IMG/VR virus record: IMGVR_UViG_3300034158_000052
Location: 1 to 44,318 of that record
Reading direction: 5' to 3' (one strand)
Length of the DNA stretch: 44,318 nucleotides
Source of the DNA: a virus
Within the stretch, counting starts at the first letter, position 1; each line of letters begins with the position of its first letter. The position numbers and the translations under genes were made by a program. The notes beneath the pieces are model-generated. The model had not been told where the DNA came from and searched no databases. It saw only the letters and a list, made by a program, of their open reading frames with translations. Below are positions 221 to 44,318 of the stretch, one piece after another.

Positions 221-997
221 TCAAGCAGCCTGTTCTCCCTTCAATAAATCGACGATTCGGCTATACCACTTGATCTGTTTCACGGGCGTTCCGTCGCCGT
301 GCTTCTTGCCCGTGTCCAACGCCTCGCCGAGCTTGGCTCCGTCCTCGGTCATCTCGTATTGCTTCCGGTTCTTGTGATCGCGGAAACTCAAGACGAGTCC
401 CTTTTCTTCAAGCATCAAATTTACCTTCTGACCAGACAGGCCAAGCCGTTCGCCGATGTCGGTTGCAGTCAACAGCGCGTCGCGCTCCTTGGCGATCAGG
501 TGCGTTGCGCCTAGGTTGCCGAGCACATCCGTTCCGGTCGTCTTGTAGGTCGCCTGATTGGCTGACAGCAGGGCTTGGTTTCCATCAAAAACCAGCTTGG
601 CAATCGACAGGTTCGAGCGGAATAGTCGGTTAGCATCAATCAGCGGTCGGACTTCGCCAGTTGGTTTCGCCTGATAGCCGCCTGTCTTGCGAACCGTCGG
701 CAAGATCTCCTCGAAAACAAGCTTCTCGAACTCTTGCGCGGTCGGGAGTTGGGAGTTGGCCATCATCCGGTATAGGTCAGGCTCGCGGATGACGCGGGCT
801 TCTTGGTTGCGCCCAAGGCTGTCGACAATGGGGTAGCGTTCCGCGACCCCACGGCAATGCGTTGAAATGGCGTCGTTGGTGTTGGCATAGCCAAGCGCGG
901 CTGCGACATCGCGCGCGACGAACAACGGCTCTCCGTTGTCATCGGCCAGGACGCGAACAGAATGGTTCTCGAACGAAAACGGGATGATATTGCTCAT
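221..997 (-). CDS. BRO-N phage antirepressor with C-terminal KilAC-like domain
   Basis: This 258-residue protein has a Bro-N domain at about residues 5-110 (IPFSFENHSVRVL, LFVARDVAAALGY, EFEKLVFEEILPTVRKTGGY). A C-terminal region at about 165-250 (LLTATDIGERLGLSGQKVN, RKQYEMTEDGAKLGEAL) resembles the KilAC-type domain of phage antirepressors. Proteins of this plan inactivate or compete with the prophage repressor and promote induction. The gene overlaps the upstream small gene by an ATGA, so the two are translationally coupled. Expression is probably held down by the C4-like antisense RNA upstream at 1424-1497. That control is inferred from complementarity, not shown. Confidence 0.85.
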   Translation of the reverse strand: MSNIIPFSFENHSVRVLADDNGEPLFVARDVAAALGYANTNDAISTHCRGVAERYPIVDSLGRNQEARVIREPDLYRMMANSQLPTAQEFEKLVFEEILPTVRKTGGYQAKPTGEVRPLIDANRLFRSNLSIAKLVFDGNQALLSANQATYKTTGTDVLGNLGATHLIAKERDALLTATDIGERLGLSGQKVNLMLEEKGLVLSFRDHKNRKQYEMTEDGAKLGEALDTGKKHGDGTPVKQIKWYSRIVDLLKGEQAA

Positions 998-1275
998 GAT
1001 CTGGCATCCTGATGGGCGCGCTCGGTCAGCATCTTGGCCTGTTCAAGCAGACCTTCGATGCACCAGATGACGTTCATCACATCAACGTGGTGTAGCGAGA
1101 AGCCGTCCTTGATGCTGCCGCCATCGGCGGACAGCAGGAGCAGCACAGAGGATGCGCGGCTCAACGTGCAGTTGAGCGCGTCAACGGGGAACTCGGGGAG
1201 CTTGCCGGGCGGCAAGACGAACAGGTCTTCAGGCGTACCGGGAGAAACGCCAGGCGTGCAGGTGCATTTGGACAT
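994..1275 (-). CDS. Small protein in the C4-antirepressor operon (icd-like position)
   Basis: The 93-residue product starts MSKCTCTPG and ends four bases into the antirepressor gene (ATGA overlap). In P1/P7 the C4 RNA is followed by icd (orfX) and then ant, so this gene holds the icd position, although I see no clear sequence match to Icd. The C-terminal half (ALNCTLSRASSVLLLLSADGG then a helix ending LLEQAKMLTE) loosely recalls small phage proteins of the DUF3077 kind. The reading frame stays open upstream to 1533 through the RNA region, giving an Ash-like conceptual extension (HTPFYGWAGQGAARLAG). I take that part as RNA, not protein. Function unknown. Confidence 0.6.
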   Translation of the reverse strand: MSKCTCTPGVSPGTPEDLFVLPPGKLPEFPVDALNCTLSRASSVLLLLSADGGSIKDGFSLHHVDVMNVIWCIEGLLEQAKMLTERAHQDARS

Positions 1276-1362
1276 TGAGAGTGCTCTTAGTTCGCGGAGG
1301 AACCACCAGCACCGAGACCAATCGGGGCGGGTGGACCGGACAGGTTGGTCTACCGGAAGAGC
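1276..1362 (-). promoter_or_regulatory. Target leader for the C4-like RNA
   Basis: Read on the minus strand, this leader carries GCTCTTC (1362-1356) and then TAGACCAACC (1352-1343). In the same order, these are the complements of GAAGAGC and GGATTGGTCT in the upstream short RNA (1424-1497). Closer to the start codon, ATTGGTCTC (1322-1314) repeats part of the RNA, so the target can pair either with the C4-like RNA or with this local copy. This is the double-block target layout known from P1/P7 immI and related to seqA/B/C of P4. Confidence 0.7.
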
Positions 1363-1423
1363 ACCGGCGAGCCTTGCGGCTCCCTGGCCGGCCCACCCAT
1401 AAAACGGGGTGTGCGCGGGCATG

Positions 1424-1497
1424 AAAAAAGCCGCGATGGTGCGGCCTTGTGCCGCTCTTCTCAGGAGACCAATCCTGGCCTCCCAGTGCGGGGAGGC
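1424..1497 (-). ncRNA. C4-type antisense RNA 1
   Basis: About 74 nt would be made from the promoter at 1504-1533. The RNA begins with a hairpin (CCTCCC, six-base loop, GGGAGG). It then has the pairing segment 1475-1454 (GGATTGGTCT, spacer, GAAGAGC) and ends in a hairpin GCCGC/GCGGC (1445-1430) followed by six T (1429-1424), an intrinsic terminator. P1/P7 C4 RNA is of similar size and represses synthesis of the antirepressor by pairing with the downstream leader. The match here is architectural plus complementarity. I could not run a covariance model. Confidence 0.7.
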
Positions 1498-36772: not shown

Positions 36773-37162
36773 ATGGCCGCTTCCTATCTCTCCGCCTGGA
36801 GCCCCGCGGCGATCGTCGCCGCCCATACCGCCCTGCTAGCCCTGCTCGACACCGGGGCCACCGTGGGCTCGATCACCATCCACGACAGCGCCGACGTCGA
36901 ACTGGCGCAGATCGACCTGGAGGACCCGGCCGGCGCCGTCAACGGCACCACTGGCGTTCTGACCCTCGCCCCCGCCGCCGCCGGCACCGCCACCGCCACC
37001 GGCACCGCCAGCTACGCCACCATCCGCGATGCCGACGGCGACCCGCATCGCTCACTGACCTGCCAGGCCGGCAGTTCGGCGGTGACCGATCGCTGTGTGC
37101 TCAACACCCTGAGCATCGTTAGCGGCGGGCCGGTCGAGATCGTCAGCGCCGTCATCAGCTAA
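36773..37162 (+). CDS. Hypothetical tail protein, 129 residues
   Basis: Begins MAASYLSAWSPAAIVAAHTA. The pattern ATVGSITIHDSADVELAQIDLEDPAGAVNGTTGVLTL, followed by ATIRDADGDPHRSLTCQAG, recurs in tail modules of siphoviruses of gammaproteobacteria. The fold looks like a beta sandwich. It sits between two tail genes and is probably virion associated. No biochemical role can be given. Confidence 0.55.
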   Translation: MAASYLSAWSPAAIVAAHTALLALLDTGATVGSITIHDSADVELAQIDLEDPAGAVNGTTGVLTLAPAAAGTATATGTASYATIRDADGDPHRSLTCQAGSSAVTDRCVLNTLSIVSGGPVEIVSAVIS

Positions 37163-41159: not shown

Positions 41160-42209
41160 TCAGACCACCGGCGTCAATTCAAAGCGGGGGTCGCTCGCCG
41201 CCAACTGCCGCTGCAGCGCGATCCAATCCGGTCGGGGCGGGATGGCCGTCTTCATCCGCGCCTTCCAAACCCGGTTGATCTGCGGCGTCCAGGGCAGCCC
41301 CCCGCGCAGATGATCCCGGAAGAAGGACGCGCGGATCTCGCTGACCAAGGTCAACAGGTGACCGGCCCAATCCTTGATCGCGGCGATCAGGAGCAGACAG
41401 GGCTCGAAGTCGCTCGCCGGCAGATCAGCAATGCGCTGGATGTGGAAAGCGACATGCAGGGTGTTGTAGACCTGCTGGGCGTCCTGGTCGTGGAAGATCC
41501 AGCCGGACAGGCAGCCATGGACCGCGCGGGAGATGTCCTGAACCTGCTGGGGGCTGATGCGGTCGTCGTCGGCAGGGTCAGTGACCGGGACCGCTGGCGC
41601 GCACCGCAGGTCCAGGCTGGTGACGTAGACGATGGCCTCGGACAACTGCGTCCGGGGCAGTTGGCTGTACTTGGCGATCCTGAACTTGCGGTGCAGGCGG
41701 CTCCAGGCCTCGGCCAGGGCCTTACCCTGAAGCTCGGGCGTGAGGTGCGCGACCTTGTGATGAACGATCTCGCTCAGGGTTTGCTGCTCGGAGGGGATGA
41801 GCGTCTCTTGATGGGACGCGGGCACCACCTGACCAGCGGCTTCGAGGGCCTTGCGCTCCATGGCGATGAAGTAGCGCCGCGCCTCCCGGCCCTTGGCGTT
41901 GTTCTCGACCATGGACAGCTCTTTGGCCATGTCGAGGCCGAGGAGGTAGTCCTTGCTCTTGCGGTCTCCGCCGCGGCCTTTTTTGATTTCCGAATTTTCG
42001 GAAATCAATGCAAAGTCTTGATCCTGAACAAATCCGTATTTCTCGACGCGGGCAGTGAACCAATCAGCGAATTTCGTTCCAGCTTCAAGAAAAACGTGAA
42101 GATCGGTTGCCTTGCAAACGTGCGCAGGCACGCCGCCAATCTGGCCAAGGAAAACGGGGACGAGTGCGGTTTCGCCGGAAACGGGCGCGATGGGGATCAG
42201 GCTGTTCAT
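41160..42209 (-). CDS. AntA-type phage antirepressor (second antirepressor)
   Basis: The product has 349 residues from the ATG at 42209 (MNSLIPIAPVSGETALVPVF). The AntA domain, about residues 30-115, contains DLHVFLEAGTKFADWFTARV, KYGFVQDQDFALIS and GRGGDRKSKDYLLGLDMAKEL, then ARRYFIAMER. The rest (GKALAEAWSRLHRKFRIAKY, later helices) resembles C-terminal regions of P22-type antirepressors. It would inactivate a repressor on induction. The gene has its own promoter and a C4-like RNA upstream, and no icd-like gene in between. Its pairing sequences differ from those of the BRO locus. Confidence 0.85.
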   Translation of the reverse strand: MNSLIPIAPVSGETALVPVFLGQIGGVPAHVCKATDLHVFLEAGTKFADWFTARVEKYGFVQDQDFALISENSEIKKGRGGDRKSKDYLLGLDMAKELSMVENNAKGREARRYFIAMERKALEAAGQVVPASHQETLIPSEQQTLSEIVHHKVAHLTPELQGKALAEAWSRLHRKFRIAKYSQLPRTQLSEAIVYVTSLDLRCAPAVPVTDPADDDRISPQQVQDISRAVHGCLSGWIFHDQDAQQVYNTLHVAFHIQRIADLPASDFEPCLLLIAAIKDWAGHLLTLVSEIRASFFRDHLRGGLPWTPQINRVWKARMKTAIPPRPDWIALQRQLAASDPRFELTPVV

Positions 42210-42217
42210 GCTGCTTA

Positions 42218-42280
42218 CCTGTATTGCTGTCACGCAAACCACAAAGACTGTGGCGGCCGGGAGGGTGACACGGCTACAGA
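42218..42280 (-). promoter_or_regulatory. Target leader for C4-like RNA 2
   Basis: On the minus strand TCTGTA (42280-42275), a four-base spacer, and TGTCAC (42270-42265) are the complements of TACAGA and GTGACA in the upstream short RNA. A further copy GTGACAGCAATACAGG (42233-42218) lies next to the start codon and overlaps the AGGT that could serve as ribosome binding site. The target can therefore pair with the C4-like RNA or fold onto the start region and hide that site. Confidence 0.65.
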
Positions 42281-42353
42281 ACCGCTCGGTTATTCCCGGT
42301 TTCCCGGTATTTTATTAACCGAACTCCCGGCCAGCGAAAAGCTGAATCGGGGC

Positions 42354-42414
42354 AAAAAAATACCGCATGGCTATCGGGTGCGGATCCGTCTGTAGGAGGT
42401 TGTCACGCCTCTTG
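42354..42414 (-). ncRNA. C4-type antisense RNA 2
   Basis: About 61 nt would be made from the promoter at 42421-42450. It carries GTGACA, six bases, TACAGA (42406-42389), the complement of the downstream leader. It ends in a hairpin CCGCA/TGCGG (42383-42363) followed by TATTTTTTT (to 42354). The architecture equals that of the RNA at 1424-1497 while the pairing bases differ. The loop of the terminal hairpin is 11 bases, so the terminator is weaker than in the first locus. Confidence 0.6.
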
Positions 42415-42420
42415 CCGATC

Positions 42421-42450
42421 AGCATAGGCCCGACCGGCGGCGGGTGTCAA
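42421..42450 (-). promoter_or_regulatory. Promoter of C4-like RNA 2 and the AntA antirepressor
   Basis: On the minus strand TTGACA (42450-42445) is a perfect -35. TATGCT (42426-42421) is a fair -10 with an 18-bp spacer. The predicted start is near 42414. It lies just past the stop codon of the secreted-protein gene, so the antirepressor does not depend on that gene's transcript. Confidence 0.7.
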
Positions 42451-42455
42451 CGGCC

Positions 42456-42809
42456 CTACCGCGTCTGGTACGTCGAGGTCCCCGTGACCTTCCCATCATT
42501 CATCCGGATGGTGGTATAGGTCCCGCCGTTGCGATAGGTGTGGCTTTCATAGCCGCTGCTGTCGCTGTACGTCGATTCTAGCGCGCCATAGCTACCCGGT
42601 TTCCGTTTCGACGAAGCCCCGCCCGCGGAGCGCCAGCGCAATTGCTGCGCGGCCTCCACCTCGCGGTCATATTGCTGGCGAACGGCCGCCTGACGCGCCG
42701 GCTCGCCCCACTCGGGGACCTGCCCCAGAAAGCGGTTGATCTGGTCCTCTGGCGCCGCGCCAGCCATCCCCGCGACCAGCAACCCAGCCACCCCAATGAC
42801 CCGCTTCAT
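42456..42809 (-). CDS. Secreted or periplasmic protein next to attP (possible moron)
   Basis: The product has 117 residues from the ATG at 42809, with AGGAG seven bases upstream. It has a clear signal peptide (MKRVIGVAGLLVAGMAGA, cleavage likely before APED), followed by DQINRFLGQVPEWGEPARQA and a Gly/Ser/Tyr-rich C-terminus (YSDSSGYESHTYRNGGTYTT). No family is recognised. Location between the immunity-related genes and attP, with its own ribosome binding site, is typical of cargo expressed in the lysogen. A function for the host is not known. Confidence 0.65.
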   Translation of the reverse strand: MKRVIGVAGLLVAGMAGAAPEDQINRFLGQVPEWGEPARQAAVRQQYDREVEAAQQLRWRSAGGASSKRKPGSYGALESTYSDSSGYESHTYRNGGTYTTIRMNDGKVTGTSTYQTR

Positions 42810-42924: not shown

Positions 42925-42993
42925 GACCATACTGAATCATGCCGGGATATGCGTGCGGGCGCCCGGCAAGTGTTGAGTTTAGGCGGCTTCCCC

Positions 42994-43041
42994 GCCCTCC
43001 GAAGGCTGGGGTCACAGGTTCGAATCCTGTCGGGCGCGCCA
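42994..43041 (+). other. attP core: 3' half of a tRNA-Arg(CCG) gene
   Basis: The 48 bases match the 3' part of bacterial tRNA-Arg(CCG): anticodon loop CTCCGAA, the 3' side of the anticodon stem, T-arm (ACAGGTTCGAATCCTGT) and acceptor end through the encoded CCA. The 5' half is absent, so it is not a working gene. Temperate phages carry such a fragment so that integration into the host tRNA gene restores it. The integrase gene ends 67 bp away, in the usual int-attP order. Confidence 0.85.
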
Positions 43042-44221: not shown

Positions 44222-44318
44222 GTGATGGCCCTCCAGGCGCCCGCGGGGTGGATCTTAGTCTGTCGATCGGCCCAGGCGTCAAGGTCGCGGGCGTCGTAGC
44301 GTTTGCCGGTGCGCCCGA
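44065..44318 (-). CDS. Excisionase-like HTH protein, C-terminal part (starts at 123)
   Basis: Continuation of the gene at 1-123. After the shared 23 bases it reads DARDLDAWADRQTKIHPAG and stays open to a TAG at 44067-44065. The last 50 or so codons overlap the integrase gene in another frame and are rich in Ser, Thr, Arg and Gln. They are probably a by-product of the overlap and not a conserved domain. The unbroken frame is the main evidence that the molecule is circular. Confidence 0.65.
   Translation of the reverse strand, partial: GRTGKRYDARDLDAWADRQTKIHPAGAWRAITCDNHHDRPDSSNAAGSGTSTKQSASARTRSNFENQLAQARSKTPSPSSTAG
44296..44318 (+). repeat. Terminal direct repeat identical to bases 1-23
   Basis: GTAGCGTTTGCCGGTGCGCC plus CGA occurs at both ends of the window. 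It lies inside the xis-like reading frame and not next to a tRNA or att sequence, so it looks like the overlap left by assembly of a circular or circularly permuted molecule. Confidence 0.9.

Follow-up and report, generated by a model that had tools for sequence, protein, structure and literature searches.

The antA gene of the virus record IMGVR_UViG_3300034158_000052 is preceded by short sequence blocks that occur twice in the same sense and once as their complement, and the question arises which of the RNAs encoded there would act as the antisense RNA, and on what. The window, i.e. the whole stretch of DNA that was analysed, comprises 44,318 nt, and the AntA locus is read from 42450 to 42209 on its minus strand. 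In our view, this locus of a temperate phage is very probably a self-controlling antisense switch in which an RNA of the sRNA-Xcc1 family takes the role of C4 or CI, comparable to the immunity regions of P4, P1, P7 and Gifsy-1. The immunity region of P1 and P7 has the order c4-icd-ant and that of P4 the order seqA-CI-seqC; both C4 and CI are processed, trans-acting RNAs, and P4 immunity works by early termination of the transcription of replication genes.

The promoter, the RNA of about 61 nt, the hairpin with its T-run, the leader and the start-site copy named in a preliminary description of this DNA were all found in place on the minus strand:

42421 to 42450, minus strand: promoter, with TTGACA (42450-42445), an 18 bp spacer and TATGCT (42426-42421)
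42354 to 42414, minus strand: predicted target-mimic RNA of about 61 nt, its 5' end inferred from the promoter and its 3' end from the T-run
42401 to 42406, minus strand: small-RNA block a1, GTGACA, in the loop of the hairpin GAGG(CGTGACAA)CCTC
42389 to 42395, minus strand: small-RNA block b1, CTACAGA
42354 to 42383, minus strand: intrinsic-terminator-like hairpin CCGCA...TGCGG, followed by T7
42247 to 42332, minus strand: sRNA-Xcc1 (RF02221) element, the C4-like antisense RNA, an 86-nt structured leader
42274 to 42280, minus strand: leader block b', TCTGTAG, in the loop of hairpin 2 of the predicted fold
42265 to 42270, minus strand: leader block a', TGTCAC, in the single-stranded joint between hairpin 2 and the closing stem of the predicted fold
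42219 to 42233, minus strand: target site over the antA ribosome binding site, with a2 GTGACA (42233-42228) and b2 TACAG (42223-42219)
41160 to 42209, minus strand: antA, encoding a 349-aa AntA/AntB antirepressor with an ORF6C domain (Pfam, PHROG)

Blocks a and b thus occur at the start site as well as in the small RNA, and the leader holds their complements. The promoter, with 10 of 12 matching positions, is the sole promoter-like site in 42150-42550 (0.2 in shuffled sequence), and comparable promoters with at most two mismatches were found at 43 of 82 related loci, as opposed to 5 in shuffles. A hairpin with a T-run is present at the equivalent place in 65 of these 82 loci (4 in shuffles); the one at 42354-42383, which has a stem of 5 and a loop of more than 8, is not listed by a consensus terminator scan. 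The placement of a1 in a small hairpin loop recurs at 55 of 75 loci, where 28 would be expected from shuffled flanks. At the other end, b2 overlaps the ribosome binding site at its AGG, which lies 8 nt upstream of the ATG at 42209, and antA begins directly after b2, with no small leader ORF of the P1 icd type in between. The assignment of AntA is supported by Pfam (PF08346, 2.9e-22, 79.5 bits with a cut-off of 27; PF10552, 2.1e-7) and by PHROG (anti-repressor Ant, 5.7e-41).

The locus had been described as a C4-like antisense switch with the 61-nt RNA as the antisense RNA. Mechanism and layout of this proposal hold, whereas the family does not, as the leader at 42247-42332 (minus strand) matches sRNA-Xcc1 (RF02221) over its full length with 54.7 bits, barely above the gathering cut-off of 53, and C4 (RF01695; gathering cut-off 45) finds no match in 42100-42500 even at E<=1. 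Our own model R1 scores the leader with 68.6 bits, the window itself being among the 45 rows from which R1 was built. The predicted leader fold has the C4 topology, in which a closing stem encloses two hairpins; b' lies in the loop of the second hairpin and a' in the joint that follows it. The scaffold helices covary in the RF02221 set, with 97.1% of the cells paired and 68 double-change cells compared to 21.4 after shuffling. At the DNA level, the leader gave no direct match to phage or plasmid records. Because both the RF02221 match and the predicted C4 topology lie in the leader, the roles of the two RNAs have to be exchanged: the structured leader is the antisense, C4-equivalent element, and the 61-nt RNA, the letters of which are identical to those of the start site, is a target mimic. 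By analogy, it would hold the place of P4 seqA, c4-a1b1 and IsrK; the covariance models of isrK (RF01394) and c4-a1b1 (RF03163) did not match it at E<=1.

If the pairing matters, related elements should be found to preserve it. For 78 distinct RF02221 arms, we scored the best ordered two-block exact match between the reverse-complemented arm and its own flank and compared it with 10,000 permutations. The mean was 13.71 for the cognate small-RNA region (9.38 in permutations, SD 0.19) and 12.62 for the cognate start-site region (8.23, SD 0.24), and none of the 10,000 permutations reached either value. For the AntA locus alone, the two-block match of the leader arm has a P of 0.003 with the small RNA and of 0.012 with the start site, where the duplex is of moderate strength (-19.5 kcal/mol, P=0.025). 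Among 49 pairs of elements with scaffolds at least 85% identical and different arms, the cognate match exceeded the cross match in 46 and tied in 3, with no reverse case, for both targets. Raw duplex energies over long flanks had also been tried as a cognate test and were dropped: they ranked the cognate first in just 5 of 57 cases, since G+C content and scaffold dominate them, and the two-block match was used instead.

Individual cases illustrate the same behaviour. In an allelic series of E. coli prophages with a near-constant frame, the block reads CAAATAAG, CTTACAAG, CTTCAAAG or CGTCAG, each time changed in three places, and the minimal pair L152/L154, likewise from E. coli prophages, has TCGAAAG and TGCAAAG, respectively, switched at all three sites. 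A close relative of the window's element, located before a Rha-type gene (L136), has GTGAGA in all three copies where the window has GTGACA. RNA and leader blocks hence change together, as the preliminary description had expected of related phages, which decides its refutation test in favour of the switch. Since the matching sequences of relatives change in concert at all three sites, this comparison shows that the pairing predicted between leader, small RNA and start site is real and under selection.

The same phage carries a second module of this kind, also on the minus strand:

1424 to 1497, minus strand: isrK-like target-mimic RNA (TTGGTCT ... GAAGAGC), RF01394 with 44.7 bits, below the gathering cut-off of 50
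1323 to 1404, minus strand: C4 antisense RNA, RF01695 with 60.7 bits (gathering cut-off 45)
1281 to 1321, minus strand: target sites before the leader ORF, TTGGTCT (1321-1315) and AAGAGCAC (1288-1281)
994 to 1275, minus strand: 93-aa leader ORF in an icd/orf45-like position, its TGA overlapping the antirepressor ATG
221 to 997, minus strand: Bro-N antirepressor (PF02498, 1.3e-19; PHROG anti-repressor, 1.7e-48)

No Pfam or PHROG match was obtained for the leader ORF. The region 1275-1500 repeats the three-part layout of the AntA locus with different bases, namely TTGGTCT/GAAGAGC in the small RNA and TTGGTCT/AAGAGCAC at the start side compared to GTGACA/TACAG, so that the two loci do, as had been stated, share their architecture and not their pairing bases. 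The computed energies also follow the earlier expectation that cognate pairs are stronger than crosses. For the C4 arm, the values are -31.1 kcal/mol with the cognate small RNA and -25.1 kcal/mol with the cognate start site, compared to -10.0 kcal/mol with either partner from the AntA locus; for the sRNA-Xcc1 arm, the cognate values are -20.8 and -19.5 kcal/mol and the cross values -13.2 and -17.7 kcal/mol. Cross pairings between the two loci are no better than shuffles, and if the paired regions are widened to take in the closing stem, G+C blurs the difference between cognate and cross. By computed pairing, the C4/isrK/Bro-N locus is thus predicted to be orthogonal to the AntA locus. In genomes with many RF02221 copies, the block pairs mostly differ as well, and some copies share one block (G016, G349, G161).

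The view that two such modules in one genome are unusual turned out to be too strong, because C4 was also found in 3 of the 23 other phage records with RF02221. One of the three is the isolated Stx phage P27, in which C4 precedes Ant (at 18 kb) and RF02221 precedes an AntB gene adjoining the integrase. Two antisense modules in one phage are a minority but recurrent arrangement. The two ends of the window share a 23-bp direct repeat (1-23 and 44296-44318) and an excisionase-like ORF spans the junction, for which reason the molecule looks circular; if it is, the two modules lie about 3.4 kb apart on one strand and flank the integrase. Beside the integrase, a stretch at 42990-43041 that ends in GGTTCGAATCCTGTCGGGCGCGCCA resembles a tRNA 3' end and may be an attachment site.

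The combination of this leader with AntA proteins extends to other phages. RF02221 is located directly before AntA/AntB genes in the E. coli phages Rac-SA53, Stx P22 and Stx P27; it matches in 20 of 274 genomes of one class and in 9 of 96 of one family, and with R1, further elements were detected ahead of AntA genes, in genome contigs as well as viral ones. In two sets of 80 AntA loci each, taken together, an RF02221-like element was in place in at least 38 and a C4-like one in 40, and about half had neither, a count that is slightly too high as three loci typed as lacking an element (L185, L190 and L201) carry an RF02221-like one. With about half of the sampled genes devoid of both, AntA does not require the element. 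A third scaffold such as c4-2, a name that a later structured-RNA catalogue reportedly gave, was looked for by an Rfam scan before 20 AntA loci without C4 or RF02221, and nothing was in place. The nearest AntA homologues, from Thiocystis and Chromatium (L009-L011), have a longer upstream coding region and no element. A query of the viral contigs with the single AntA protein gave no match, whereas an alignment query did find relatives. Near the AntA gene of a Magnetococcales contig, a Type II hammerhead ribozyme was noted (L046:978-1043).

The start codon mostly follows 31-43 nt 3' of the RF02221 element, and the Pfam classes of the downstream proteins (n=45) comprise SymE_toxin (10), AntA (8), Phage_pRha (6), Bro-N (4), ORF6N (2) and P22_AR_C (2). 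Before close relatives of AntA, it is C4 that occupies the equivalent position, as in L008 (66-71% identical), L013 and the viral L156, and one E. coli AntA allele (L153) has isrK and C4 where other alleles have RF02221. A weakly resolved AntA tree of 149 rows requires at least 14 switches between the C4 and RF02221 scaffolds across its 77 typed rows. Since C4 occupies the RF02221 position at close relatives of AntA, the two antisense cassettes are interchangeable, and we regard this exchange of scaffolds as the best evidence that C4 and sRNA-Xcc1 do the same job.

Compared with known systems, the AntA locus resembles P4 in the sense-antisense-sense order within one transcript; P4, however, terminates the transcription of replication genes early, whereas the last copy of the AntA locus lies over a ribosome binding site. 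The C4 system of P1 and P7 (RF01695; c4-a1b1, RF03163; icd-ant) likewise exposes b' in the loop of a hairpin and a' in a joint, carries the target once upstream (a1 b1) and once more at the start site (a2 b2), and is followed by an antirepressor, but the AntA locus has the RF02221 scaffold, no C4 score and no icd-like leader ORF. With IsrK-orf45 (STnc1160)-anrP of Gifsy-1 (RF01394), it shares a short terminated RNA and a read-through mRNA from one promoter and a short RNA that matches the segment silencing the antirepressor, while its short RNA fails the isrK model and a leader ORF is absent (PMC4825925). In that system, the short IsrK activates anrP, P4 seqA is regarded as a structural homologue of IsrK, and STnc1160 was compared with CI (PMC4825925). 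To sRNA-Xcc1 itself, the likeness is a sequence and structure score above the gathering cut-off; the family has been described as an integron-borne, trans-acting virulence sRNA, whereas the arm of the phage element would be antisense to the next gene.

Taken together, the following mechanism is the most likely. From one promoter (42450), a short terminated RNA carrying a1 and b1 would be made, and read-through transcripts would continue into the sRNA-Xcc1 element and antA. Once folded, the element would present b' in the hairpin loop and a' in the single-stranded joint and, either processed free or in cis, would pair with b2 and a2 and thereby mask the ribosome binding site, which would keep antA silent in the lysogen. 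An incoming phage whose specificity matches may have its antA silenced by this element as well. Carrying the same a and b, the short RNA could occupy the antisense RNA and so allow more AntA to be made, as for IsrK; alternatively, it could serve as a termination target as in P4. Layered superinfection immunity, as proposed in the preliminary description, may then result from the two modules.

It is also conceivable that the locus is mainly a cis attenuator, in which pairing inside one transcript sets read-through or translation and neither a free antisense RNA nor immunity in trans is involved. When the 236-nt leader is folded as a whole, the element is predicted to pair with the small-RNA blocks of its own molecule, and the long RNA of Gifsy-1 is silent via such a cis structure (PMC4825925). 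However, the a and b sites are hypervariable and largely orthogonal among co-resident copies, which is what recognition in trans would predict, and a free 88-nt form of sRNA-Xcc1 is known (PMC2996969). As far as the role models are concerned, the C4 RNA of P1 and the CI RNA of P4 are both known as processed RNAs acting in trans. Mainly cis action is, in our judgement, possible and rather unlikely. A true C4 (RF01695) module, to which the shared topology, position and target layout could point, is highly improbable given the missing C4 match at E<=1, the conserved scaffold letters of the RF02221 set (AATACAA..ACC..GG.AATA), which are unlike those of C4, and the clans of Rfam 15, where C4 and c4-a1b1 belong to CL00128 and RF02221 to none.

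Nor do the data fit well with an sRNA-Xcc1 that is a virulence or host-targeting RNA acting in trans and is placed before antirepressors by coincidence. Control by HrpG/HrpX in Xanthomonas, as announced in the title of Chen 2011 (cited in PMC12444791), and the presence of sRNA-Xcc1 in Xylella vesicles (PMC12189769) are compatible with such a role; the three-way covariation with the element's own flanks, its recurrent position 31-43 nt before the starts of antirepressor or SymE genes, and its occurrence in Stx and Rac-like E. coli phages render it extremely doubtful for the phage elements. The Xanthomonas sRNA-Xcc1 that is said to answer to HrpG/HrpX need not, for its part, be an antirepressor-type switch. 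The suspicion that matches between blocks of just 5-7 nt reflect chance or low complexity is refuted by the permutations and by the scaffold-matched pairs, 46 of 49 of which favour the cognate partner with none against.

The switch driven by an sRNA-Xcc1 element, which we prefer to these readings, is of a kind already known from C4, CI and IsrK. What appears new is that the sRNA-Xcc1 scaffold belongs to it, together with the putative control of SymE toxins, and in the open-access literature we found no paper joining sRNA-Xcc1 with C4 or antirepressors. The founding study mapped sRNA-Xcc1 as a stable 88-nt RNA in Xanthomonas (Xcc) with many predicted targets (PMC2996969), and its association with symE in Xanthomonas integrons has been reported (PMC12444791). 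In the available text of the study on Xylella vesicles, C4, isrK and sRNA-Xcc1 are annotated close together, and the link is not drawn there (PMC12189769). The present analysis proposes what an orphan RNA family, which in papers of 2025 still figures as a virulence or vesicle-delivered sRNA, may do and which gene it may target, and it provides a simple, testable pairing code. The antisense scaffolds of phage anti-immunity would accordingly number at least two, C4 and sRNA-Xcc1, which are exchangeable, and since specificity is rewritten in three places together, immunity types could be read from sequence.

Outside the antirepressors, RF02221 was observed directly before SymE-family toxin genes in eight loci (L100, L119, L126, L127, L137, L139, L140 and L141), and a SymE search in plasmids gave no match. 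As most of these cassettes show three-way block matches, their sequences suggest that SymE toxins may be under C4-like antisense control. This would differ from SymE/SymR, with which these cassettes have the SymE-family gene at their 3' side in common, in that SymR is a cis-encoded overlapping antisense RNA, whereas the RF02221 cassette precedes the gene on the same strand.

Two further elements (L027:512-598 and L055:2621-2705) have an upstream small-RNA match and lack a target copy and gene of their own, and a complete second module follows in each case. For Xylella, PMC12189769 reports five RF02221 copies in a row. One could speculate, as an improbable extension, that sRNA-Xcc1 is a general exchangeable cassette with dozens of orthogonal two-block specificities that gates antirepressors and SymE toxins, and that target-less copies such as these two and the five-copy row are immunity arrays silencing the antirepressors of heteroimmune phages. 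As a separate observation in the window, ARAGORN reports a 101-nt tRNA-Asn(gtt) at 36881-36981 on the minus strand, within the late-gene region, which is odd in both length and place.
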